Source of the DNA: an uncultured Saprospiraceae bacterium
GTDB lineage: Bacteria; Bacteroidota; Bacteroidia; Chitinophagales; Saprospiraceae
Direction: 5' to 3'
DNA: 55,641 bases
Assembly: GCA_937934275.1 (NCBI GenBank)
Contig: CALHAM010000029.1
Coordinates: 1 to 55,641, forward strand
Below are positions 3,120 to 54,981 of this stretch, in pieces. Made by a program: the position numbers and the translations under genes. Under the pieces are notes generated by a model. It was given only the letters and a program-made list of their open reading frames with translations, did not search any database and was not told the origin of the DNA. Every line of letters starts with the position of its first letter. The first letter of the stretch is position 1.

Positions 3120-3257
3120 CGCAGCCCAGCGGGCCGAGCTTGCCATCCCTCCGAATGGGCTTGGCGGCTCTCATGGCTAATAGGGCCGCAATGGTGCAAA
3201 CCGCTTAAAAACTCTTTGCCCTTCAGCGCCTTTATGGCAGAAGAAAAACAGCTCACC

Positions 3258-4028
3258 ATGGGAAAAATCATCACGATAGCAAATCAGAAAGGTGGCGTAG
3301 GCAAAACGACTACTGCCATCAATTTGGCCGCTTCTTTGGCTATTTTGGAAAAGCGCGTGTTGCTCATTGACGCCGATCCTCAGGCCAATGCCTCCTCGGG
3401 GGTGGGTGTTATCACCGACGAAAACAGCGTCGGGCTGTATGACTGCATGGTCGGCGGCATTGACCCGCGCTCGGCCGTTGTCGCTACTGAAACGCCCAAC
3501 TTGTGGCTTTTACCCTCGAGCATCAACTTGGTGGGCGCCGATGTAGAACTGGTTAGCCGCCCCAAACGCGAGTACATTTTGCGCGACATCGTGCACCAAG
3601 TGCGCGACGAATACGACTTCATCTTCATTGACTGCTTGCCATCGTTGGGCCTCATCACCGTAAACGCGCTAGTGGCCGCCGATACGGTGCTCATCCCGGT
3701 ACAGTGCGAAATGTTTTCTTTTGAAGGCTTGGCCAAGCTAAAGAACACCATTGCCCTGGTAAAACAGGGCTACAACCCTAATTTGAAAGTGGAGGGGCTT
3801 CTCATCTCCATGTACGATAGCCGCCTGCGCTTGGCCAATGCGATTGTAGAGGAGGTGCGCAACAGCAGTACGGACTACGTCTTTGAAACCATCATCCACC
3901 GCAATGCCCGAGTGGCTGAGGCGCCCATGCAACACGTGCCTGTAGCGCTGTACGACATCAGTAGTAAGGGCGCGGTCAACTTTTTCAATTTAGCAAACGA
4001 ATTTTTGCGGCGCAATGCCGCTAACTAA
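3258..4028 (+). CDS. parA: Chromosome-partitioning ATPase ParA (Soj)
   Basis: Walker-type ATPase that, with ParB-parS, segregates replicated origins. The deviant Walker A motif KGGVGKTT is at residues 11-18 and the switch segment FIDCLPSLG follows. The C-terminus [13 protein letters not shown] is typical of chromosomal ParA. The open frame extends upstream to TTG 3216 and ATG 3234; ATG 3258 is chosen because [10 protein letters not shown] is the conserved N-terminus (256 aa). The stop codon shares one base with the parB start (TAATG), so the pair should be co-translated. Candidate parS sites lie about 33 kb away at 36.6 and 37.6 kb. Confidence 0.95.
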
Positions 4029-4948
4029 TGGCCACCATGTCGAAAAAATTGAGCAGGACAGACTTCGGCAAAGGCATTCGGGCTTTGTTGGCCAATCCAG
4101 CAGAATTGGAGCAAGCCGTTCAGGAAAATCCTCAAGCCGTCGTGCGCGAGTTAACGCACAGCGTAGCCTTGCTGCCCATTGAACAAATCGAGGCCAACCC
4201 TTTCCAGCCGCGAACGGAATTTGACCAGGAAGCCCTTCAAGAGCTGGCCGACAGTATTCGAGTCCACGGCCTCATCCAGCCCATTACCGTCCGCCGCCTA
4301 CACGACCGCGCTTACCAGCTCATCTCCGGCGAGCGCCGCTTCCGCGCGAGCCAAATGGCTGGCCTACGGGAAATACCCGCCTACGTCCGCATTGCCGACG
4401 ATCAGCAAATGCTCGAAATGGCGCTCATCGAAAACATTCAGCGCCAAGACCTGAATGCTATCGAAATCGCCATCTCTTACCAGCGCCTCAAAGAAGAGTG
4501 CAACCTCACCGACGAGCAGCTCTCCGAGCGCGTAGGCAAACAGCGCAGCACCATTACCAACTACTTGCGGTTGCTCAAACTGCCGGTAGACATCCAGCAA
4601 GCCATTAAAAACGGCTCTATTAGCATGGGCCATGCCCGAGCTTTGGCCGGAGTAAGCGATATTGCTTTTCAGCTCTCGCTTTTGCGTCAAATTTTGCAAG
4701 ACGATCTCTCTGTACGCGCCGTCGAAGACATCATTGCCCGCCACCAGGCCGAGCGCCTAGGCCCAAAAAAGCGCGCTGAAAAACGCCTGCCCGACGCGCT
4801 GCGCCATATCCAGGACCGCTTCAGTGCTTTCTTTGGCACTAAAGTAGACCTCAAACGCAATGAGCGAGGCAAGGGGCAAATTGTCATCAAATTTGATAAC
4901 GACGCTGAACTGAACCGCATCCTCGACATCCTTGACCAAAAAGACTAA
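4028..4948 (+). CDS. parB: Chromosome-partitioning CTPase ParB (Spo0J)
   Basis: DNA-binding CTP-dependent clamp that loads at parS and spreads along the origin region. The N-terminal CTP-binding domain carries GERRFRAS (101-108) and ENIQR (135-139). The helix-turn-helix region follows (LSERVGKQRSTITNYLRLL), then a C-terminal dimerisation domain ending IVIKFDNDAELNRIL. 306 aa is normal. The N-terminal 45 residues form the expected ParA-interacting extension (FGKGIRALL). ATG 4028 overlaps the parA stop by one base. No gene follows on this strand for 316 bases. Confidence 0.95.
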   Translation: MATMSKKLSRTDFGKGIRALLANPAELEQAVQENPQAVVRELTHSVALLPIEQIEANPFQPRTEFDQEALQELADSIRVHGLIQPITVRRLHDRAYQLISGERRFRASQMAGLREIPAYVRIADDQQMLEMALIENIQRQDLNAIEIAISYQRLKEECNLTDEQLSERVGKQRSTITNYLRLLKLPVDIQQAIKNGSISMGHARALAGVSDIAFQLSLLRQILQDDLSVRAVEDIIARHQAERLGPKKRAEKRLPDALRHIQDRFSAFFGTKVDLKRNERGKGQIVIKFDNDAELNRILDILDQKD

Positions 4949-36597: not shown

Positions 36598-36613
36598 GGT
36601 TTCACGTGGAACA
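36598..36613. promoter_or_regulatory. parS: Candidate parS site 1 (ParB-binding)
   Basis: The 16-mer ggtttcacgtggaaca matches the near-universal parS consensus TGTTYCACGTGRAACA at 15 of 16 positions, failing only at the first base. It lies between the OmpA gene stop and the thrC start. The window encodes its own parA-parB. The call is from motif; binding is not shown. Confidence 0.75.
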
Positions 36614-36652: not shown

Positions 36653-37960
36653 ATGCAACTATATAGCACCAACAACCCCAGCTTACGCGCTACCTTCCAG
36701 GAAGCTCTTTTTCAAGGTTTACCGCCCGATAATGGCCTTTACATGCCTGTGCGCATTCCTCGCATGCATGAAAGCTTCCTCCGAGAATTGCCTAAATTAT
36801 CTTTTAGCGAAATCGCCTACCTCCTCGCTGAAGCATTGATGGGCGACGAGATTGCTCCCGACACTCTACGCAAAATCATCCATCGGACCATTACCTTTCC
36901 GGCTCCAGTAGTCGCTTTAGACGAACAAACGGGCATTTTAGAACTCTTCCACGGCCCCTCTCTAGCGTTTAAAGACTTTGGCGCTCGCTTTATGGCGCAG
37001 ATTATGGCGCATTTCAACGACGATCCGTCCCGCGATTTAATCATCTTAGTAGCTACCTCAGGCGATACTGGTGGCGCCGTAGCGGCCGGCTTTTATAAAA
37101 CTCCCGGTATCCGAGTCGTTATCCTCTATCCTTCTGGAAAAGTTAGCCCGTTACAAGAAAAACAACTCACTACCCTCGGGCACAACATCACAGCCATAGA
37201 AGTAAAGGGTTCCTTTGACGATTGCCAAGATTTAATCAAAAAAGCCTTTCTAGACGAAAACCTTCGCCAAAGGCTGCGCCTGAGCTCTGCCAATAGCATA
37301 AACATTGCTCGACTGTTGCCGCAGATTTTTTACTATTGGGAAGCCTACAAACAAGTGCAACACCTCGGCCTACCCATCGTCTTCTCTGTGCCCTCCGGCA
37401 ACTTTGGCAACCTAACGGCCGGCCTCTTAGCCCAACAAATGGGTCTGCCCGCCCAACATTTTCTCGCCGCCACAAACGTCAACGATACCGTTCCGAGGTA
37501 CCTGAAGTATGGTCACTTCGAACCCAAACCCTCCGTACGCACCCTCTCCAATGCCATGGACGTTGGCAGCCCTTCCAACTTCGCCCGAATATTGCAACTG
37601 TATAGTTCCACGTGGAACATTGTGCGCGCGCACATCTCCGGTTTTGCCTTCGACGACGAACAAACCCAAGCCGCCATGCGGGCCGTATATGCCGACCACC
37701 AATATGTACTCGACCCACATACGGCCGTCGGATATTTAGCCTGGAAAGCCTACCAAAGCCAACAGCCTATCCGCGCTTTCGGTATCATCTTAGGCACAGC
37801 ACATCCTGCTAAATTCCAAGAAGATGTGAGTAAAATACTGAGGACAGACCTACCTCTCCCTCAACCCCTTGAACAATTGCTCAAACAACCTAAAAGCGCT
37901 ACCCCTATGCCAGTAGACTACGCTCTCTTCCGAAAGTGGCTTTCCAATACTTTTGGATAA
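36653..37960 (+). CDS. thrC: Threonine synthase
   Basis: PLP enzyme converting O-phospho-L-homoserine to L-threonine. ATG 36653 (MQLYSTNNPSLRATF) is the family start; an upstream TTG at 36614 overlaps the parS region and is less likely. The PLP-binding Lys107 lies in HGPSLAFKDFGARF, and the phosphate loop in SGDTGGAVAAGF; SVPSGNFGNLTAGLLA is also conserved. 435 aa fits the type 1 enzyme. Cytoplasmic. The coding sequence contains a second parS-like site at 37604, read as S-S-T-W-N. It converges on the hydrolase gene with eight bases between stops. Confidence 0.93.
   Translation: MQLYSTNNPSLRATFQEALFQGLPPDNGLYMPVRIPRMHESFLRELPKLSFSEIAYLLAEALMGDEIAPDTLRKIIHRTITFPAPVVALDEQTGILELFHGPSLAFKDFGARFMAQIMAHFNDDPSRDLIILVATSGDTGGAVAAGFYKTPGIRVVILYPSGKVSPLQEKQLTTLGHNITAIEVKGSFDDCQDLIKKAFLDENLRQRLRLSSANSINIARLLPQIFYYWEAYKQVQHLGLPIVFSVPSGNFGNLTAGLLAQQMGLPAQHFLAATNVNDTVPRYLKYGHFEPKPSVRTLSNAMDVGSPSNFARILQLYSSTWNIVRAHISGFAFDDEQTQAAMRAVYADHQYVLDPHTAVGYLAWKAYQSQQPIRAFGIILGTAHPAKFQEDVSKILRTDLPLPQPLEQLLKQPKSATPMPVDYALFRKWLSNTFG
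37604..37619. promoter_or_regulatory. parS: Candidate parS site 2 inside thrC
   Basis: The 16-mer agttccacgtggaaca matches TGTTCCACGTGGAACA at 15 of 16 positions, failing only at the first base. It is 1,006 bases from site 1 and embedded in thrC codons. Two such matches 1 kb apart, and no others of this quality seen in 55 kb, argue against chance. Confidence 0.8.
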
Positions 37961-38868: not shown

Positions 38869-39987
38869 TTAAGCAAGTCGTTTTGCAGAATTTCTAAAGT
38901 CTAACTTTTCCATTTCCGAGGAGTTCCGGAACATCATGTGCATGACCCAAACGACAAGACCGAGTAGGATGACCGCACCCATTTGGTGTAAGACGCCCAA
39001 CAAGACAGGAATGCTTCCTTGACAATTTAGAAGGGTAACAATACCCAACAACACTTGTAAAAGCAGCATTCCTGCAAAGGCCACACTGCTCCGACGCAAA
39101 AGTGCAGTTTGAGCTTGCCGCCAAAATTGGATTGCTGCGTATAGCCCGATGAGCGTGAGCAAATACGCCGTATTCCGGTGCAAAAATTGAATCAGCGCTG
39201 GCATAAAGGGATTAGAGTCGTAATGGGTGAAACTGTCCCAGTTCCAATACGACGCCTCTCGTAAAACAGCCGGCAAATACACTCCATGCATATCGGGCCA
39301 AGTCGGAAAAAATAGCCCAGCTTTCGCTCCCGACATCATGGCGCCCAAAGCAATCTGAAAAAACGATATGCCCAACAAGGCATAGCTCATCGTTTTCCAG
39401 GTACTCGTGTAGCCCTTATCCCTCGGTATAGCATAGGTGGAGAACACCGTCCACAATAAGTAAGAAAAAATGAGCAAAGCCATACACAAGTGTAGGGTGA
39501 GGTTGTAGGCATTTACCCAAGGCCTATGGATAAGCCCACTGGCTACCATAATCCATCCGAAAAAGCCCTCTAAACCCGCTAACAAGACAACAAACGTTAG
39601 TTGCCTGAGCAACCGCTTAGAAAGCATACCTTTCTTCCAGAAGATCCCGAAGGGGATGATGAAAACGAAAAACATCAACCGCGCCCAAAGGCGGTGGAAA
39701 TACTCCCAAAAGTAGATAAACTTGAACTCCGCCATGCTCATCCCCTGGTTGATTTGGGCATATTGCGGCGTTGCTTTGTACAGGTCGAAAGCCTCTTCCC
39801 AGGCCTGCTCACTAAATGGAGGAAGAGTGCCCGTAACGACCTCCCAGCGTGTGATGCTCAGCCCACTACCGGTTAGGCGCGTTACTCCTCCAATAATTAC
39901 TTGCAGAAAAACCATGGCAACGCCAATCCATAGCCAAATGCGCACAGCACGCGCCACTTGAGTGTTGTCTTTTACGCTTTCCAACAT
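38869..39987 (-). CDS. ctaA: Heme A synthase (COX15/CtaA family)
   Basis: Inner-membrane enzyme that oxidises heme O to heme A for aa3-type cytochrome oxidase. 372 aa with about eight hydrophobic helices. Family marks: IIGGVTRLTGSGLSITRWEVVTG in pieces (GGVTRLTGSGLSI), FIYFWEYFHRLWARL with conserved His, VASGLIHRPWVNAYNLTLHL with a further His, and FLHRNTAYLL near the C-terminus with the last His ligand. No ctaB or cox genes are adjacent. It faces away from the candidate origin gap. Confidence 0.93.
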   Translation of the reverse strand: MLESVKDNTQVARAVRIWLWIGVAMVFLQVIIGGVTRLTGSGLSITRWEVVTGTLPPFSEQAWEEAFDLYKATPQYAQINQGMSMAEFKFIYFWEYFHRLWARLMFFVFIIPFGIFWKKGMLSKRLLRQLTFVVLLAGLEGFFGWIMVASGLIHRPWVNAYNLTLHLCMALLIFSYLLWTVFSTYAIPRDKGYTSTWKTMSYALLGISFFQIALGAMMSGAKAGLFFPTWPDMHGVYLPAVLREASYWNWDSFTHYDSNPFMPALIQFLHRNTAYLLTLIGLYAAIQFWRQAQTALLRRSSVAFAGMLLLQVLLGIVTLLNCQGSIPVLLGVLHQMGAVILLGLVVWVMHMMFRNSSEMEKLDFRNSAKRLA

Positions 39988-40464
39988 GATGCGGTATTAA
40001 CCGTAGAGATGAAAAAATGACTGCCTTTAGAACACGCCTGTAAACACTCTAATCAGCCGTTTGGATGCAGCATTTTTTCCACACCGCTAATGGTTGCTGA
40101 AGGTGAAAATATTTTTTTATTCAAAAAAATTCATCGCGCATCATAGGGGCTGTGCATTTGTGGATTTTAACGCAATCGAAAAACTCGGCGGGCTTCTTCC
40201 ATAGCGCCAATAGAGTTTTTCACGTGCCTATGAGTTAACATTGGCTTAATAACCAGCAGGTTTTGTCGGTATCCACACCAATGTGCAAAAGCCACTGGCT
40301 TTATTCTGTGAGTCTTTTCTTCCGTCCATCCCGTGTGGGGATTGCTCAGTAGAAAGCGAGTTATCTTTAAGTAGCTGCGGAGAACACCTTCGGTGGAAGC
40401 AATGCCCATGCCTTGGTGTGGGAAACTATAGCCTTAGCTCATTCTCTTATTCACAGTAAAGTGT
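39988..40464. other. oriC: Candidate chromosome origin (oriC): gene-free gap with DnaA-box-like cluster and A/T run
   Basis: This 477-bp gap between ctaA and feoB holds DnaA-box-like 9-mers (consensus TTATNCACA): TTATTCACA at 40447 (9/9), and 8/9 matches TTTTCCACA at 40075, GTATCCACA at 40269 and TTTTGCACA (minus strand) at 40282-40290. Weaker ones are at 40151-40159, 40159-40167 and near 40416. By a simple uniform-base estimate about 0.4 matches with at most one mismatch are expected in this length; four are seen. A/T-rich bases 40106-40133 could be an unwinding element. The parS-like sites are 2.5-3.5 kb away. No dnaA is adjacent, which is normal in this phylum. Inference only. Confidence 0.42.
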
Positions 40465-42624
40465 TTAAACAAACAAGTTATAGACAACCCACGCACCTGC
40501 GTAAGCCATGAGGGTCATGAAGGCAAATTGGAGCAGTGGCCATTTCCACGAACCTGTTTCGCGGCGCACCACAGCCAAGGTACTCGCGCATTGCATAGCT
40601 AAGGCATAGAATACCAACAAAGAAAGGGCAGTGGCCAAAGTATACACGGGTTTTCCCGAGTCAGTAAACTTCTCTGCTTGCATGCGTTGGCGAAGCGTCG
40701 CCTTAGTTTCGTTTTCATCGGCGTCGGTGATGTCTTTTTCCGCATCTCCTAACTGATACAAAACGGCTAAGGTGCCGGCAAAGACTTCGCGAGCAGCAAA
40801 TGAAGTAAACAGAGCAATGCCAATTTTCCAATCGTATCCCAGCGGGCGAATGAGAGGCTCGAAGATTTTACCTATCCGACCTGCGTAGGAAGCTTCTAAT
40901 TGGTAGGCCGCTACTAAATTCTCGGTTTCTTCAGGGGAAAGTTGTCGGCTCAAAGCCTCTAAGCGCGCGTTGACCTCAGCGCTGGGCAAACTATCGCCCG
41001 GTCCGAAACTGGCCAACCCCCATAGCGTTATCGAAATGATTAAAATAATACGCCCAGCTCCGAAGATAAACGCCGAAACTTTTTCCCACACCGTCAGCCA
41101 CAGATTGGGCCAATGCGGCAATCGGTAAACAGGAAGCTCTAATGCTAAATAGGACAGTTCGCGAGTACGCATGATTTTCTTCAAAACATACCCTGTGCCC
41201 AAAGCTGCCACTATCCCAAGGACATACATCCCAGCGAAGATGAGACTCTGGAGCGAGAGGAAACCCAAGATCTTTTTAGAAGGGACAACCAACCCGATAA
41301 GAATGACGTATACCGGAATGCGTGCACTGCAGGTAATGAAGGGCGTCACCAAGATGGTAATGAGCCGCTCCTTCCAATTGCCGATCGTTCGGCTGCTCAT
41401 GATGGCTGGCACGGCGCAAGCCCCTCCACTAATGAGCGAGACCATGCTCCGGCCACCCATCCCAAATCGGCGCATGAATCGGTCGAACATGAAAACCACG
41501 CGGGCCATGTAGCCAACCTCTTCTAGCAGGGTGATGAGAAAGAAAAGAATGGCAATTTGGGGCACGAAGACAAGAATGCCGCTAAGACCGGTTACAATGC
41601 CATCGGTCAATAGCTGGGTCGTCCAGTGTTCGGGCAGGTTGGCTTTGAGGGCACTGCTCAACCAGCCAAATGACGACTCAATGAAGTCCATCGGAACAGA
41701 ACTCCAGTCGTAAATGGCCTGAAAGACCAGTAACATAATAAGGGCAAAGATCACTGGACCGAACCAACGATGCGTGAGTACGACGTCGATGCGGTCAGTA
41801 ATTGTACTCGGAAAACGCGGTGGAAATTGAACGGTTGCCTGCACGATAGGCGTAAATCGGTCGTATCGTTCCAAGGTTTCGTCCACCTGTCGTTTTAAGG
41901 AGTTAAACTGCTTGTCAAACACAATGGCGCCAATGGTCTGACGTATGGGCGCTGGCAACTTAGGCAACCACGAATAATGGTGAGCCAGCAACAGTGACCG
42001 ATAAGAATTGTCGGTTCCGGCGTTTATTCGAATGGCCTCTGAGACGTTTTTTTCCTGTTCGTTCAGCGAGTAAAAACCCTTGTGAGGAGGCCGGTTGCCT
42101 TCCAGCAACTTCTCTATTTCTGAAAGAAGCTTAGAGACATTCTCTCCGGTTCGGCTGCTGAGCAATACCACAGGAATGCCTAGTTTTTCTGCAAGTTTCA
42201 CCGTATTGACTTTCAGACCGATCGTTTCTGCCGCATCTGCCATGTTGAGTGCTAGCAAAATGGGAAGGTCTAAATCCAACAGCTGAGTGAGCAACAACAG
42301 ATGCTTTTCTAGGTGGGTAACGTCGGCCACGTACACTACGACATCGGGGTAGTTAGGGTCAGAGGGGTCGCTAAAAACTGACGCTACAATGCGCTCATCG
42401 GCAGACGTAGGATATAAACTGTAGGCACCGGGTAAATCGGTCAGCTCTACTTCTCTTCCACTAGGTAGCCGAAAACGCCCCTTTTTTATATCAACCGTGA
42501 CGCCGGGAAAATTGCCCGTCTTTTGCCTTAGACCCGTTAGCAGATTGAATAAAGTAGATTTGCCGCTATTCGGATTGCCCACCAGTGCAATATTAGGCAT
42601 CCGAGGCACCTGTATTGCATTCAT
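40465..42624 (-). CDS. feoB: Ferrous iron transporter FeoB
   Basis: Inner-membrane Fe(II) importer with an N-terminal G domain. G1 is GNPNSGKSTLFN, G2 FPGVTVDIKKG, G3 DLPGAYSL and G4 NMAD, followed by a GDI-like helical part. The membrane region starts near residue 290 and carries two inverted Gate motifs (FVPQIAILFFLITLLEEVGY; ITCSARIPVYVILIG). 719 aa is typical. The start overlaps the feoA stop by four bases (ATGA), giving a coupled feoAB operon. No Fur box was recognised. Its stop borders the candidate origin gap. Confidence 0.96.
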   Translation of the reverse strand: MNAIQVPRMPNIALVGNPNSGKSTLFNLLTGLRQKTGNFPGVTVDIKKGRFRLPSGREVELTDLPGAYSLYPTSADERIVASVFSDPSDPNYPDVVVYVADVTHLEKHLLLLTQLLDLDLPILLALNMADAAETIGLKVNTVKLAEKLGIPVVLLSSRTGENVSKLLSEIEKLLEGNRPPHKGFYSLNEQEKNVSEAIRINAGTDNSYRSLLLAHHYSWLPKLPAPIRQTIGAIVFDKQFNSLKRQVDETLERYDRFTPIVQATVQFPPRFPSTITDRIDVVLTHRWFGPVIFALIMLLVFQAIYDWSSVPMDFIESSFGWLSSALKANLPEHWTTQLLTDGIVTGLSGILVFVPQIAILFFLITLLEEVGYMARVVFMFDRFMRRFGMGGRSMVSLISGGACAVPAIMSSRTIGNWKERLITILVTPFITCSARIPVYVILIGLVVPSKKILGFLSLQSLIFAGMYVLGIVAALGTGYVLKKIMRTRELSYLALELPVYRLPHWPNLWLTVWEKVSAFIFGAGRIILIISITLWGLASFGPGDSLPSAEVNARLEALSRQLSPEETENLVAAYQLEASYAGRIGKIFEPLIRPLGYDWKIGIALFTSFAAREVFAGTLAVLYQLGDAEKDITDADENETKATLRQRMQAEKFTDSGKPVYTLATALSLLVFYALAMQCASTLAVVRRETGSWKWPLLQFAFMTLMAYAGAWVVYNLFV

Positions 42625-43053: not shown

Positions 43054-44103
43054 TTAAGTTTGGGGTAACAGAGGAACTTCCGAATTAGCGCGAAAGTGTG
43101 CGTTGGGAAACCGTTGGCCATTAAAAATGAGGTGGGAAGCCTTTTGCCGCTGTTCGGCAAGGGGCAGCTGTGCGAATTCGCGGCAGGTGTGCGAACAGCA
43201 GCCTTGGTATTTTTCTCGGCACTTGTTACACTGGATAAAGAGCAAGTGGCAGTAGTTGTTGGCGCAATTGGTATGCGTATCGCAGGGCGCTCCACATTGG
43301 TGACAGTGGGCGATGACTTCGCTGCTGATGCGCTCGCCGAGGCGTTCGTCGAAGACAAAGTTTTTACCTACGAATTTGTTGGGCAAGTTTTTGGCCCTGA
43401 CCTGTCGAGTGTATTCAATGATGCCGCCTTCGAGTTGGAAAACCTTTTTGAAACCCAAGTGCTTCAAGTAGGCGCTAGCTTTTTCGCAGCGAATACCGCC
43501 GGTGCAGTACATGACGATGTTACGGTCCTTTTTGTCGGCCAGCAACTCAGCCACGTAAGGCAGTTCCTCTCGAAACGTATCTACGGGAGGGAGGATGGCG
43601 CCCTGAAAATGCCCTACTTCGCTTTCGTAGTGGTTGCGCATGTCGACGACGATAGTTTCCGGGTCGTCGGTCAAAGCGTTAAAAGCTTCGGCGCTCAGAT
43701 GAATGCCAGCATTCGACGGGTCGAAGGTCGGATCGTCAATGCCGTCGGCCACAATCTTTGAGCGTACCTTGATGGTCAGGGCAAAGAAGGATTTTTGGCT
43801 GTCCTCTATGGCGATGTTGAGGCGTAGATTTTGCAAAAAGGAGATGCTCTCTAGGGCGGCCTTAAAATCTGCCATCCTGCGCGTAGGCACCGATATTTGA
43901 GCATTGATGCCCTCTTGGGCCACGTAGATGCGACCCAATACGCCGATTTCGCTAAAAAGCCCGTAGAGGTGGTTGCGAAAAAATGCAGGGTTGGCAATAG
44001 GGGTGTAGCGGTAAAAGGAGAGCGTCGTGCGGGCTTCAGCGCTGTACTTCAGCCTTTGGCGAAGTTCTCGGCGGTTGATGCGGTTATAGAGGAAAGTAGG
44101 CAT
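43054..44103 (-). CDS. trhO: tRNA uridine(34) hydroxylase TrhO (rhodanese-like)
   Basis: Hydroxylates U34 of certain tRNAs (first step to 5-methoxyuridine/cmo5U). 349 aa: N-terminal ferredoxin-like domain ([18 protein letters not shown]), a rhodanese domain with active-site Cys in [17 protein letters not shown] (about residue 200), and a C-terminal Cys-rich part ([32 protein letters not shown]) typical of the family. It starts 20 bases after the aminotransferase stop, so the two are likely one transcript. Confidence 0.93.
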
Positions 44104-44123
44104 AGATACGGAACAGTGTAGAG

Positions 44124-45266
44124 TTACACCTTTGCCAAACGCTCGCCGGCCTGTTCGAGCAGATCGTCTGTTTTAGCAAAGCAAAAACGGATGATTTTGT
44201 CGTTTGGCTTGTGAGAAAAGAAGGACGAAATGGGGATAGCGGCCACGCCGTAATCTACAGTGAGGCGTTTGCAAAAGTCTAAGTCCGGTTCATCACTAAC
44301 GGCGGAGTAGTCGTACAGTTGGAAGTAAGTGCCGTAGCAAGGGAGGGGTTTGAAGCGCGTGCCGGCCATAGCTTGTTGGAATTTATCCCGTTTTCGTTGG
44401 TAGAATTCAGATAGGCCCATGTATTCCGAAGGGTCGGCCATAAAGTCGGCGAAAGCGGCTTGCATGGGATGGTTAGCCGAAAACACGTTGAACTGATGCA
44501 CTTTCCGAAACTCGCGCGTCAGTTCGGGCGGGGCAATGCAGTAGCCTGTTTTCCAGCCCGTATTGTGGTAAGTTTTTCCGAAAGAATAAATGCACAAGCT
44601 GCGCTCGTAGAGGTCGGGATATCGCAAAGCTGAGGCGTGCTGTTCACCGTCGAAAAGGATGTGTTCGTAGACTTCATCACTCATGACCAGGACATCTGTG
44701 TTCTTCAGCATGCGGCTCAGGGCCAGCATATCTTCTTCGCGCAGCAGGGTACCTGTAGGGTTGTTGGGCGTATTGATGCAAATCATCCGGGTGCGCTGAG
44801 TAATGCGGCGCTTGAGAGCCTCCCAGTCGATGCGATAGTCGGGTGCGCTTAAGGCGAAAGGAATGGGTATTCCTCCTACGGTTTCTACCGAAGGGCGATA
44901 AGAATCGTAACCCGGCTCGATGAGAATGACTTCATCGCCCGGATGGACAAAAGCGGCAATCGCGCAAAAGATGGCCTGAGTGCCGCCAGCGGTAATGGTG
45001 ATTTCCGCATCTGGGTTGAGCGCTCGTCCGTAGAGGCGCTCCATTTTTTCGGCGATGCGCTCGCGCAGCGATAAAAGCCCCGGCATAGGCGAATACTGGT
45101 TAGCGCCGCGCTGCATATGCTCAAAGACCAATCGCTGCAGTCGCTCCGACGGATGGAAGTTCGGAAAACCCTGCGACAAGTTGATAGCACCGCACTCGTG
45201 TGCCAAGCTCGACATCACGGTGAAAATTGTAGTCCCTACGTGAGGCAATTTAGAATGGATGTGCAT
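44124..45266 (-). CDS. PLP-dependent aminotransferase class I/II, YbdL/methionine aminotransferase type
   Basis: 380-aa fold-type I aminotransferase. Start region [16 protein letters not shown] is typical of the kynurenine/methionine aminotransferase (YbdL) group. [12 protein letters not shown] and [11 protein letters not shown] form the cofactor and substrate loops, and the PLP Lys is in [15 protein letters not shown] (about residue 231). Likely transaminates methionine or aromatic amino acids with a 2-oxo acid. It is upstream of trhO, 20 bases apart. Cytoplasmic. Confidence 0.9.
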
Positions 45267-47257: not shown

Positions 47258-48004
47258 TTACCGCTTTTCCAGCAACCACCACTTCGGCCGGCGCCTCACA
47301 ATGCGGTAGTTCTCCACCAAATGCTGCCGAAGGTGCGCAACTGCTTCCATCGGGTCGTCGGTAAACCTCAGCAAATCGAGGTCTTCCGGTGAAATCGTCC
47401 CTTCTTTCACCATAGCATTCAACATATCGCGCAGGTCGCGGAAGTAATCTGTACCCATGACCACAATCGGAAAGTTGGCGATTTTTCCCGTCTGAATGAG
47501 CGTCAGCGTTTCGAAAAGTTCGTCCATAGTGCCAAAGCCACCGGGAAAAATGATAAACCCGAAGGAATACTTCACCAAAAGAACCTTACGTACGAAAAAA
47601 TAACGCAATAGAACGAATTTATCCAAATACGGATTTTCCTTTTGCTCTTGGGGCAGTACGATATTGCATCCCACCGACCAACCTCCTGCCTCGCGCGCGC
47701 CGCGGTTAGCCGCTTCCATAATGCCCGGACCACCGCCTGTCATGACCACCAAGCCCAAGTCCTTGGCGATGAGCGAACCTACCCTTCGCGCCAATTCGTA
47801 ATAGCGGTGCCCCTCCTGAAAGCGCGCCGAACCAAACACGGTGATGGCCGGCCCCATAAAATGAAGCGCTCGCATGCCGCGAATAAACTCCCATAAGATG
47901 CGAAAGGCAAAAGCCAATTCGTAGCGTCGGTTGCCCGGCCCTTCTAACCATACCGACTCGTTGCGCGCAATCAGAGGGCGATGAGATGTGCTCATAACGT
48001 GCAT
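47258..48004 (-). CDS. LOG-family (TIGR00730) nucleotide 5'-monophosphate phosphoribohydrolase
   Basis: 248-aa Rossmann-fold protein. The signature PGGFGTMDELFE and upstream GGGPGIMEAANRGA mark the LOG/lysine-decarboxylase-like family. Members release the base from AMP or cytokinin nucleotides and are not lysine decarboxylases despite the old name. It starts (48004) 45 bases after a TATTTTTG promoter element. Cytoplasmic; monocistronic. Confidence 0.92.
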   Translation of the reverse strand: MHVMSTSHRPLIARNESVWLEGPGNRRYELAFAFRILWEFIRGMRALHFMGPAITVFGSARFQEGHRYYELARRVGSLIAKDLGLVVMTGGGPGIMEAANRGAREAGGWSVGCNIVLPQEQKENPYLDKFVLLRYFFVRKVLLVKYSFGFIIFPGGFGTMDELFETLTLIQTGKIANFPIVVMGTDYFRDLRDMLNAMVKEGTISPEDLDLLRFTDDPMEAVAHLRQHLVENYRIVRRRPKWWLLEKR

Positions 48005-48281: not shown

Positions 48282-49895
48282 ATGTTAAAAAAAAGCATTT
48301 TATTTGTTTTTATTCTTTTTTGGGCTTTCAATGGTCATGCTCAGATGTCTCCCTTCGACGTGCTCCTCGAGCCAATGCCTATAGTTGGCTTAAGGGGTAT
48401 ACAGTCTTACGCGTGGGGGCAACACGAGGGTAAGTGGTTAATTGTTGGCGGACGATTAGACGGTTTGCACCGCAGACAACCCTTTGCCGCTTTTGATGTG
48501 GCGGGCAGTAATAATCAATTGCTTGTCATTGACCCTGTCTCTCAGCAGAAATGGTCGGTTCCTTTAACCTCCTTACCCACGAGGTTGCAGGAGCAACTAA
48601 GCTCTACGAACATGGAGTTTTATCAAGAGGGCGATTATTTGTATTTGATTGGAGGATAAGGATACAGCAGCACAGCGAACGACCACATTACTTACCCTAA
48701 TCTTAGCGCCATAAAAGTTCCGGATGTGATAAACGCTATCATTTATGGGCTGCCCTTTAGTGCTTATTTTAGGCAAATAACAGATACCCTATTGGCTGTA
48801 GCAGGTGGGTATCTCAACAAAATTAATAATACTTTTTACTTAACGGGCGGAAACAAATTCATGGGCCGATACAACCCCATGGGACCTAACCACGGTCCCG
48901 GATTTGTACAGATATATACGAATTCTATAAGGAGATTTAATATCATAGATGATGGCACTACCCTTGTCGTACATCATTTTACCGAGATATACGACCCCAT
49001 CAATCTTCATAGGAGAGACTATAATGTTGTACCTCAGATTATGCCGAATGGAGAAGAGGGCTTAACGGCTTTTTCGGGTGTTTTTCAATTGGATGCCAAT
49101 CTGCCGTTTCTAAACTCTGTCAACATAGACAGCTCAGGATATTTCGTTAATAATGACTTTTCTCAGTATTACAACCATTATCATTGCGCTCACATTCCGT
49201 TGTACAGTGCAGCTCAGAAAGAGATGCACACGGTATTCTTTGGAGGGATAGCCCAGTATTATGACGATAAGGGTACCCTTGTCCAAGACAACAATGTTCC
49301 CTTCGTAAAAACCATAGCGCGAGTAACAAGGAATGCCAATGGTATGATGGCAGAATATAAGTTGCCTGTTGAAATGCCTGCTTTTCTTGGAGCGGGGTCA
49401 GAGTTTATTCCTATGGAGCATTTGCCTAAGTATCACAATGGAGTTTTAAAATTGGATGATTTCGAAAGGGATACCACCCTGGTTGGATACATTTATGGGG
49501 GCATTGCCAGTTCCGCTCCCAATATATTTTTCACCAATACCGGTGCCGAGAGCAGTGCAAGTAGTCAGATTTTTAAAGTTTATATCGTTAAAAACGCGAT
49601 ATCGAACACCCATGAATTAAACATCCAGAGTATCGGAACCTTGCAGCTGCAGGTTTACCCCAACCCCAGCAAGGATGGTTTTACGGTGAAATTTAACCTA
49701 AAAAGCCCTTCTACGGCGAAGTTAACTCTCTACGACTCCAATGGTAACTGGATAGAAAGCACCATACTCTCTAACTTAAAAGTTGGGGAAAACATTTATT
49801 CCAAGCAGATTGAAGGCATAAAGAAAAGGGGTATTTATTTCATATCGCTAGAAACGGAGAGTGAGAAGGCCTCCCAAAAGATAGTTATCCATTGA
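48282..49895 (+). pseudogene. T9SS-secreted Kelch-like protein gene with in-frame nonsense codon
   Basis: One continuous frame encodes a signal peptide (MLKKSILFVFILFWAFNGHAQ, ATG 48282; 48258 is an alternative) and a propeller-like body with Kelch-type strands (WLIVGGRLDG, YLYLIGG, FYLTGGNKF, VGYIYGGIA). It ends in a T9SS type A sorting domain (VYPNPSKDGFTVKF, LYDSNGNW, GIYFISLETES, ending KIVIH). The frame is broken by TAA at 48657-48659, between GG and GYSS, where a Tyr codon would be expected. Without it the product is about 537 aa. The next in-frame start (48726) lacks a signal peptide, so the second half would not be exported. A/T-rich compared with genes to its left. Confidence 0.82.
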
Positions 49896-53361: not shown

Positions 53362-54981
53362 ATGTACATTCGAAGAAAAGTATTTATCGTTTTTTTAGCG
53401 ACTACAGCTGCTAACCTCTTTTCACAAGGCATTCGGTTAGGGCTAAATTTTCCTTTTAGGGGCCCTGAATACGCCAGTATTGCTAATCACATAAGCCGCT
53501 TGGAAGGCTGCGGAGCACACATTTATCGGCAAATGACCTACGCTGACTTAATCTGGAAGCATGTTGAACCAACAGATAATAACTGGAATTTCAAGTATCC
53601 CGATAGTGTTTTTTTTCATTATTTAAATCATGAGTACGTAGCCAATTTATATGCTCTTACCGTTGCAAATACCAATAATGGCAATGTTGGCTATCAGGTA
53701 CCTTGGAGGGCTTGCACGAACTCTCCTCTTTGTGGTTGGAGGTATAACTTAGACAGCACTGCCACCATGGATTACCTCAGTACTTGTGTAAATAGGTATT
53801 CCAGCAAAGTCAGGTATTGGGAACTTGGGAATGAGTCTATAAATTCTAATTATCCGTTGGGCATGCCCATTTTGCCTTTTGTTGACTTTGTCAAACATAA
53901 TTACAGGTGGATAAAAGCGGTAAATCCACAAGTTAAAGTCTTATTGCCGGGAACGGTAGGTACTTATGGCTTTCCCATGCAAAAGACTTATCAAGACCTA
54001 CATGCCTTATTTTCTAATAATATAGGAAACTATTTCGATATTTTTAGCTTTCACGATTACAACGCTTGGTGGACAACCCCCCTTCACATCGACAGCATTT
54101 TAGCGATTCGAGACTTATATGGACTTCAAGATAAGGAGGTATGGATAACAGAAAGCTCGGTTTCCTCCCTCAACTTTTCAGCGATTACTCCGACTTACTC
54201 AAGTGTGGATGAACAAGCAGCAGATGTATGGAGGCGATCTACTATTGCGTGGGCTAAAGGCATCCATACGTTTTTCTGGCATAGTGGGTGGAGTAGTCCA
54301 CCTCCTAATGAATGGGCAGAATTTGGGCTTTTAGACCACACTGGAAAAAAGAAGAAATCTTATCACTCTTATCGGCTTTTAGCTGATAAGATAGCCAATT
54401 TCACTTCTGCGCAAATAAAGAGTATGGGTATTGTGGAGGATAATAATAACTCTACTATTGGAGGAAATGGAGTTTGGGTTATGAAATTTGTAGTAAACGG
54501 CGAAAGTAGATATGTCATGTGGAGCAGAGATGCGCAGACCTACTCATTGACATCAGCCAGTGATGTAAAATACATAGTTACAAGTGTTGTTCCCTCGGAC
54601 ATTTCCAATGATGGAGAGACCGCAGTCTTTTCCAAGGACTCAATATATCTGAGTGCGGGTGCTCAATATACGTTTCGCCTGTCATCATTGCCGATTTTAG
54701 TGGAGGAGGTAAAGACTACCTCTATTTCTATTCCGACGGAAAGGACTTTAATTGAGGTTTTCCCTAACCCTGCAAAGTCATATCTTGAGATTAAAAGTGC
54801 TCTAAGCGTTTCGTCCAGGATAGAATTACTCGACGCTTTAGGCAGGTTAGTCCTACAAACCGAACTTAAACCCCAGGAAAGCGAAATGCTCTATCTGAAC
54901 AAACTGAATAAGGGAATTTATTTTTATTCAATTAGCCGTGAGGGAATCATCTTACAGCAGGGTAAGATAGTCATTGAGTAA
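53362..54981 (+). CDS. Clan GH-A-like glycoside hydrolase with T9SS sorting tail
   Basis: 539 aa. A signal peptide (VFIVFLATTAANLFSQG) precedes a TIM-barrel-like domain. The acid/base candidate is Glu in YWELGNES (about residue 155), the classic Asn-Glu of clan GH-A, and the nucleophile candidate is Glu in KEVWITESSVS (about 268); FDIFSFHDYNAWW lies between. A strand-rich linker (about 350-450) and a T9SS type A tail (VFPNPAKSYLEIKS, LDALGRLVLQ, GIYFYSISREG) follow. Substrate, possibly a beta-linked polysaccharide, is not deducible. A/T-rich compared with the two genes upstream. Converges on the SulP fragment. Confidence 0.82.
   Translation: MYIRRKVFIVFLATTAANLFSQGIRLGLNFPFRGPEYASIANHISRLEGCGAHIYRQMTYADLIWKHVEPTDNNWNFKYPDSVFFHYLNHEYVANLYALTVANTNNGNVGYQVPWRACTNSPLCGWRYNLDSTATMDYLSTCVNRYSSKVRYWELGNESINSNYPLGMPILPFVDFVKHNYRWIKAVNPQVKVLLPGTVGTYGFPMQKTYQDLHALFSNNIGNYFDIFSFHDYNAWWTTPLHIDSILAIRDLYGLQDKEVWITESSVSSLNFSAITPTYSSVDEQAADVWRRSTIAWAKGIHTFFWHSGWSSPPPNEWAEFGLLDHTGKKKKSYHSYRLLADKIANFTSAQIKSMGIVEDNNNSTIGGNGVWVMKFVVNGESRYVMWSRDAQTYSLTSASDVKYIVTSVVPSDISNDGETAVFSKDSIYLSAGAQYTFRLSSLPILVEEVKTTSISIPTERTLIEVFPNPAKSYLEIKSALSVSSRIELLDALGRLVLQTELKPQESEMLYLNKLNKGIYFYSISREGIILQQGKIVIE

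Follow-up and report, generated by a model that had tools for sequence, protein, structure and literature searches.

The usual neighbour of a DnaA-dependent oriC is dnaA, with gidA/mioC in one example given for Ori-Finder 2022 (PMC10225481). In the Flavobacteriaceae oriC has been predicted beside mnmG instead (PMC11278836, PMC12843772); the text of one of these reports (PMC11278836) places oriC at mnmG, and one of its figure legends labels mnmG as ter. The module at which DnaA unwinds the DNA has been formulated as the BUS rule, as published with a DnaA box of up to 2 mismatches, a spacer of up to 16 and three or more consecutive 3'-NAN-5' trios, spacers having their peak at 10-13 (PMC8287927). 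Among the matches listed from open-licence PMC articles, none has a title or abstract beginning that mentions an origin at ctaA or one in the Saprospiraceae; DoriC may hold a prediction for a complete Saprospiraceae genome.

The window analysed here is the whole of a 55,641-nucleotide contig (C29) from a 157-contig, 3.43-Mb assembly of an uncultured Saprospiraceae bacterium, which is 99.9% complete. Judging from its sequence, the 477-bp gene-free gap at 39988-40464 (GC 0.434; whole contig 0.512) is very probably the chromosomal oriC of this bacterium. The initial annotation had proposed this reading, and it is supported by the cluster of DnaA boxes, two parS sites nearby, the conservation of the boxes and a skew minimum in or near the gap. 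The flanking ORFs, ctaA and feoB, are as that annotation had them, both on the minus strand, and its observation that the flanking genes show no clear leading-strand switch was also borne out: feoB and the two genes that follow (43054-45266) all lie on the minus strand and run against the inferred rightward fork.

The predicted oriC is ordinary in kind, and its placement beside ctaA and its layout are common to many relatives. Like the DnaA-dependent origins predicted by Ori-Finder 2022, as described there (PMC10225481), it is intergenic, holds a box cluster and an A/T-rich run, lies near the skew minimum of its contig and has parS close by; it differs from them in its neighbour, ctaA. With the mnmG-side origins reported for the Flavobacteriaceae (PMC11278836, PMC12843772), which were located with Ori-Finder and checked by skew, it shares a position apart from dnaA in a Bacteroidota genome; unlike those, it has ctaA as neighbour, and mnmG is on another contig. 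The features referred to below are listed here; L033, L034 and L035 are the ctaA loci of three close relatives, L034 and L033 (87% and 81% identity in the ctaA protein) being the closest named loci, from Saprospiraceae metagenome genomes.

3216..4028, plus strand: ParA-type ATPase gene (AAA_31, 2.1e-64)
4028..4948, plus strand: ParB gene, the assembly's sole ParB_N match (E <= 0.001)
36598..36613, plus strand: parS site GGTTTCACGTGGAACA
37604..37619, plus strand: parS site AGTTCCACGTGGAACA, within the threonine synthase gene
38869..39987, minus strand: ctaA (heme A synthase), adjoining the predicted origin
39988..40464, no strand: candidate oriC, the gene-free gap between ctaA and feoB, with a DnaA-box cluster and conserved blocks; relatives have a skew minimum within or close to the corresponding gap
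40075..40095, plus strand: opposing module made up of box TTTTCCACA, a CCG spacer and CTAATGGTT (three trios), directed at the A/T-rich run from the side opposite to the core
40106..40133, no strand: A/T-rich run, presumed DNA unwinding element; the same place is A/T-rich in aligned relatives
40139..40144, minus strand: trio-like ATGATG, two trios; most anchored relatives (see below) have three or more
40146..40150, minus strand: GC cluster GCCCC
40151..40159, minus strand: core DnaA box 2, AAATGCACA, 3 mismatches to TTATCCACA, overlapping box 1 by one base
40159..40167, minus strand: core DnaA box 1, AAATCCACA, 2 mismatches to TTATCCACA
40235..40249, no strand: conserved TTAA-N7-TTAA element, in 4/4 aligned sequences (window and three relatives)
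40269..40290, both strands: inverted DnaA-box pair, 4 bp apart, GTATCCACA at 40269-40277 (+) and TTTTGCACA at 40282-40290 (-)
40447..40455, plus strand: exact DnaA box TTATTCACA; L033 has TGTGGAAAA and L034 has TGTGGATAA at the aligned position (ctaA strand), which is degenerate in L035
40465..42624, minus strand: feoB, the other neighbour of the gap

Rfam (at gathering scores) and a tRNA scan of the window gave nothing besides a tRNA-Arg at 26.2 kb. Two ORFs of the window, at 48726-49895 and 53362-54981, carry Por secretion C-terminal sorting domains.

Five DnaA boxes with up to one mismatch were found in the 477-bp gap, whereas dinucleotide shuffles gave a mean of 0.52 and none of 2000 reached five, indicating a cluster beyond chance; just one of the gap boxes is exact. 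When the contig was scanned in 10-bp steps, six such boxes per 477 bp were reached solely from starts 40010-40070, and the gap is the densest DnaA-box stretch of the contig. Boxes are not enriched across the whole window (41 with up to one mismatch against 35.7 expected, and one exact TTATNCACA against 1.37 expected) or the whole assembly (56 exact boxes against 65 for the reversed-pattern control). The signal is therefore one of clustering and not of number. The four 9-mers from which the initial annotation started (40447, 40075, 40269 and 40282-40290) were all confirmed, and what it had described as weaker matches at 40151-40167 proved to be two overlapping minus-strand boxes, AAATGCACA and AAATCCACA. 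Two additional matches had been missed, TTATTCAAA at 40117-40125 (+) and TTATAGACA at 40478-40486 (+), the latter just within feoB.

The three close relatives align with the window in most of its blocks, and the DNA between these is largely divergent. The box with up to one mismatch at 40075-40083 (+) is aligned in L033 and L034 and degenerate in L035. The inverted pair is present again in L033 and in weaker form in L034 and L035, and a similar pair was found in L037, L050 and L066.

A wider comparison was made with the best 80 of 198 ctaA loci, that is, 81 loci with the window, all of them picked by ctaA. Four of the 81, with less than 650 bp upstream, were left out of the counts that refer to 77 loci (window included). 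Over these 77 loci the 650 bp upstream of ctaA hold 108 perfect boxes in total, whereas 200 shuffles gave 3.4 on average and never more than 9. A perfect TTATNCACA is present upstream of ctaA in 58/77 loci, and 26/77 have two or more; 19/77 have no perfect box, and 38/77 have no parS within the DNA examined. Counted in 200-bp bins, 109 boxes fell in the 308 bins up to 800 bp upstream of ctaA and 74 in the 6571 bins elsewhere. In an unbiased search for 9-mers enriched upstream of ctaA, TTATCCACA ranked first and TTTTCCACA second. The boxes are thus conserved among relatives, both as an excess over the 77 loci and at aligned positions in the three closest ones, which was a check that the initial annotation had suggested. 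Since feoB is found upstream of ctaA in just 8/81 loci (some loci end short of the neighbour), the boxes go with ctaA, and adjacency of feoB was ruled out as a component of the system.

Read on the ctaA strand, the elements of the window are arranged in the order exact box (40455-40447), inverted pair (40290-40269), TTAA-N7-TTAA (40249-40235), core, A/T-rich run and opposing box (40083-40075). The core has the form AAATCCACAAATGCACA-GCCCC-T-ATGATG (40167-40139), and the run at 40106-40133, where unwinding is presumed to start, sits between the box modules. A core motif comprising tandem boxes, GC cluster, trio-like ATGA block and A/T-rich DNA was found in 31/77 upstream regions and at 2 places elsewhere in 1.31 Mb (both strands), with a pattern drawn up from the same loci in which the 31 were counted. 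The order of boxes, GC cluster, trio block and A/T-rich DNA is fixed across loci and their spacing is mostly constant. With a looser pattern 41 loci were anchored, including the window; L034 is absent from them because the pattern requires ATGA after the second box, and its core is still present in the alignment.

This arrangement resembles the BUS of Bacillus subtilis as reported (PMC8287927): the boxes are in tandem, the upstream one being nearer to the consensus, and are followed by a short GC spacer, a block of trinucleotides whose central A is conserved and then A/T-rich DNA. The spacer of 11 found in most anchored loci fits the 10-13 peak given in that report, and the rule as published there holds in 32/41 anchored loci (window among the 41), mostly with spacer 11. 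Unlike the BUS, the boxes of the ctaA loci overlap by one base and the second is usually degenerate, with a median of 5 mismatches. A further difference is that the trios of the ctaA loci are mostly 3'-GAN-TAC-TAC-5', the strand that carries the trios relative to the box being taken from general knowledge of the BUS. In the window the core box (2 mismatches) and the spacer (14) lie within the limits of the rule, but the core has two trios and not three. It is therefore called BUS-like here and not a strict BUS. The plus-strand module at 40075-40095 conforms to the box-spacer-trio part of the rule. In Ca. Parvibacillus calidus (L104, at about 3679600 of G155:C1) the tandem boxes read TTATCCACA-TATTCACA-GCC and are followed by CAACAACAAC and not by GATGATG.

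The TTAA-N7-TTAA element, which we take to resemble a response-regulator (CtrA-like) site, was found in 23/77 ctaA loci, whereas 200 shuffles gave 8.5 on average and at most 15. TTAA pairs at spacing 11 are raised too (19 against 8.6 in shuffles).

In 13/41 anchored loci (L038, L039, L041, L042, L045, L049, L052, L054, L057, L059, L061, L068 and L102) the trios of the core ATGATG are directly followed by a C-GNA-G mini-hairpin with a three-pair stem, a structure present in 0.5% of random 32-bp stretches. Its register is identical in 12 of the 13 and shifted by one base in the other. The stems are CCC/GGG (5), GCC/GGC (7) and TGC/GCA (1), with the loops GTA, GCA and GAA. This signal is suggestive, since the loci are related and the two main groups differ in just the outer pair of the stem. 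When three-pair triloop stems of any kind were counted, most of them A/T, 29/41 anchored loci had one, against 35% of random stretches. The window's own core has no C-GNA-G mini-hairpin. A search on mini-hairpins at origins gave, by title or abstract beginning, no paper on origins among the matches listed. These details may tentatively be put together as a lineage-specific Saprospiraceae origin, which we consider rather unlikely as a whole: it would lie at ctaA and not at mnmG, have tandem boxes overlapping by one base of which the second has drifted to ACTAACA, carry in part of the family a hairpin on the strand to which DnaA is not expected to bind, as a possible helicase-loading or priming signal, and use TTAA-N7-TTAA as the site of an initiation regulator.

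The pattern GTTNCACGTGNAAC, presumably the parS consensus, was used to search for parS. Two matches were obtained in the entire 3.43-Mb assembly, 2.4 and 3.4 kb from the ctaA start, and none with the reversed-pattern control, so that the assembly's sole two sites are close to the gap. Among 119 genomes of the same order at least one site was found in 88 and exactly two in 56; the reversed pattern was also present in some. Five genomes (G010, G018, G022, G029 and G035) have two sites each, 2.4-3.6 kb from the ctaA start and on the ctaA side, as in the window, and in G006 and G008 parS lies about 14 kb from ctaA on the other side. The window thus holds parS sites together with ParA and ParB genes, and binding of ParB to these sites is predicted. 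The presence of ParB on the same contig adds little to the case for the origin, because in G155 and G055 more than 700 kb separate ParB from the inferred origin.

Cumulative GC skew was calculated for six contigs with the ctaA-feoB gap, read whole or nearly whole. The initial annotation had called for a skew minimum of the full chromosome at this place. Among the contigs the lowest point is inside the gap in two, G010 (lowest of 147.6 kb at 103544, whole contig) and G018 (lowest of 55.7 kb at 47762, whole contig), and locally in G035, where the gap point at 68763 is the lowest within +-15 kb and the contig minimum is 30 kb away, at 99178. In four, G035 included, the lowest point is outside the gap: by 1.1 kb in the window contig (41523, at -852, with -827 in the gap, in a genome of 157 contigs), by 1.2 kb in G029 (17062) and by 3.6 kb in G022 (1757, 20.0 of 22.3 kb read). 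Ca. Parvibacillus calidus (G155), a member of the Saprospiraceae in the NCBI taxonomy, was sampled with 20 stretches of 20 kb. Its skew was positive in 10/10 samples from 0.09 to 1.85 Mb, negative in 8/9 from 2.04 to 3.61 Mb and positive at 3.81 Mb. Between 3.64 and 3.71 Mb the skew is lowest at 3679568, some 120 bp upstream of where the matched ctaA starts, and the 400-kb stretch is slightly lower still 97 kb further on, at 3776866 (-3555 against -3357). In G006 the 400-kb minimum is at 3029417 and a local dip, at 3214112, lies between ctaA and parS; this genome was not counted as support because 20 samples of 20 kb from one contig of its 9-contig assembly gave no clean two-arm skew.

Skew on the two sides of the gap was counted in the 49 loci with 7.5-kb flanks. 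It rises across the gap in 42 of them, the expected sign being present on both sides in just 25, and this rise partly reflects gene orientation. For the 29 of these long-flank loci that bear parS, the mean skew step peaks at zero shift among nine shifts and is positive in 25/29.

One important question is whether the gap might be an ordinary promoter or regulatory region of ctaA, where DnaA would be at most a transcription regulator and the true origin would lie a few kb to tens of kb off, near parS. The gene needs a promoter and the gap is its upstream space; the parS sites are 2.4-3.4 kb away, outside the gap, and the lowest skew is outside it in 4/6 contigs. We nevertheless consider this improbable, since G010 and G018 have their skew minimum inside the gap, as does G035 when +-15 kb is considered, the contig has no denser box cluster, and boxes, GC cluster, trios and A/T-rich DNA keep a fixed order with mostly the same spacing. 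Even less credit is given to a chance cluster of box-like 9-mers, which is practically negligible: the absence of box enrichment across window and assembly would fit it, but no shuffle out of 2000 reached five boxes, and both the enrichment over 77 ctaA loci and the conservation across relatives speak against it.

Origins beside dnaA or mnmG are known from other bacteria and other Bacteroidota, and so are datA-like box clusters that titrate DnaA. A true origin beside one of these genes, with the gap as a titrating cluster, would agree with G055, from another family of the order, in which the lowest skew of 400 kb (1345432) is beside parS (1347049 and 1347754) and mnmG (1347842) and ctaA is 50 kb away. 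On this ground we rejected the idea that ctaA neighbours the origin everywhere; in G055, too, the skew minimum is marked by parS, and the gene next to the origin differs between families. No perfect box was found in 15-16 kb around ctaA of G038, G043, G053 and G055. In the genome of the window, dnaA and mnmG are both on contig C46, so that neither adjoins the gap. Per 500 bp, near-boxes number no more than 2 in the 9.5 kb around dnaA and 1 in the 4.2 kb around mnmG, with no box cluster, no perfect box and no parS in either stretch, and neither parS nor a skew minimum is expected at a titration site. An origin at dnaA or mnmG is therefore very unlikely here, more so than the promoter explanation. 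Another site, C23:898 and C23:1133, is the sole pair among the 56 exact boxes of the assembly lying within 500 bp of each other; it has no parS, one of its boxes is within an acyl-carrier-protein-like ORF, judged from the translation, and it was rejected.

With the gap taken as oriC, we infer the following course of initiation from the layout of its elements. DnaA would bind the outer boxes (40447 and the inverted pair at 40269-40290) as well as the tandem, overlapping ones at 40151-40167. Starting from the latter, it would spread across the GC cluster and ATGATG and reach a single strand of the A/T-rich run at 40106-40133. This run would then open, with the second box-trio module (40075-40095) directed into it from the opposite side. 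Helicase would be loaded on the opened strands and forks would depart both ways, and ParB at the parS sites at 36.6 and 37.6 kb may aid the segregation of the new origins.

The oriC reading gives a predicted origin position for a large and mostly uncultured family of the Bacteroidota. A known origin position would serve to orient genomes and to estimate growth rates from metagenome read depth, and the aligned ctaA origins offer a natural test set for the parts that the DnaA unwinding module needs.
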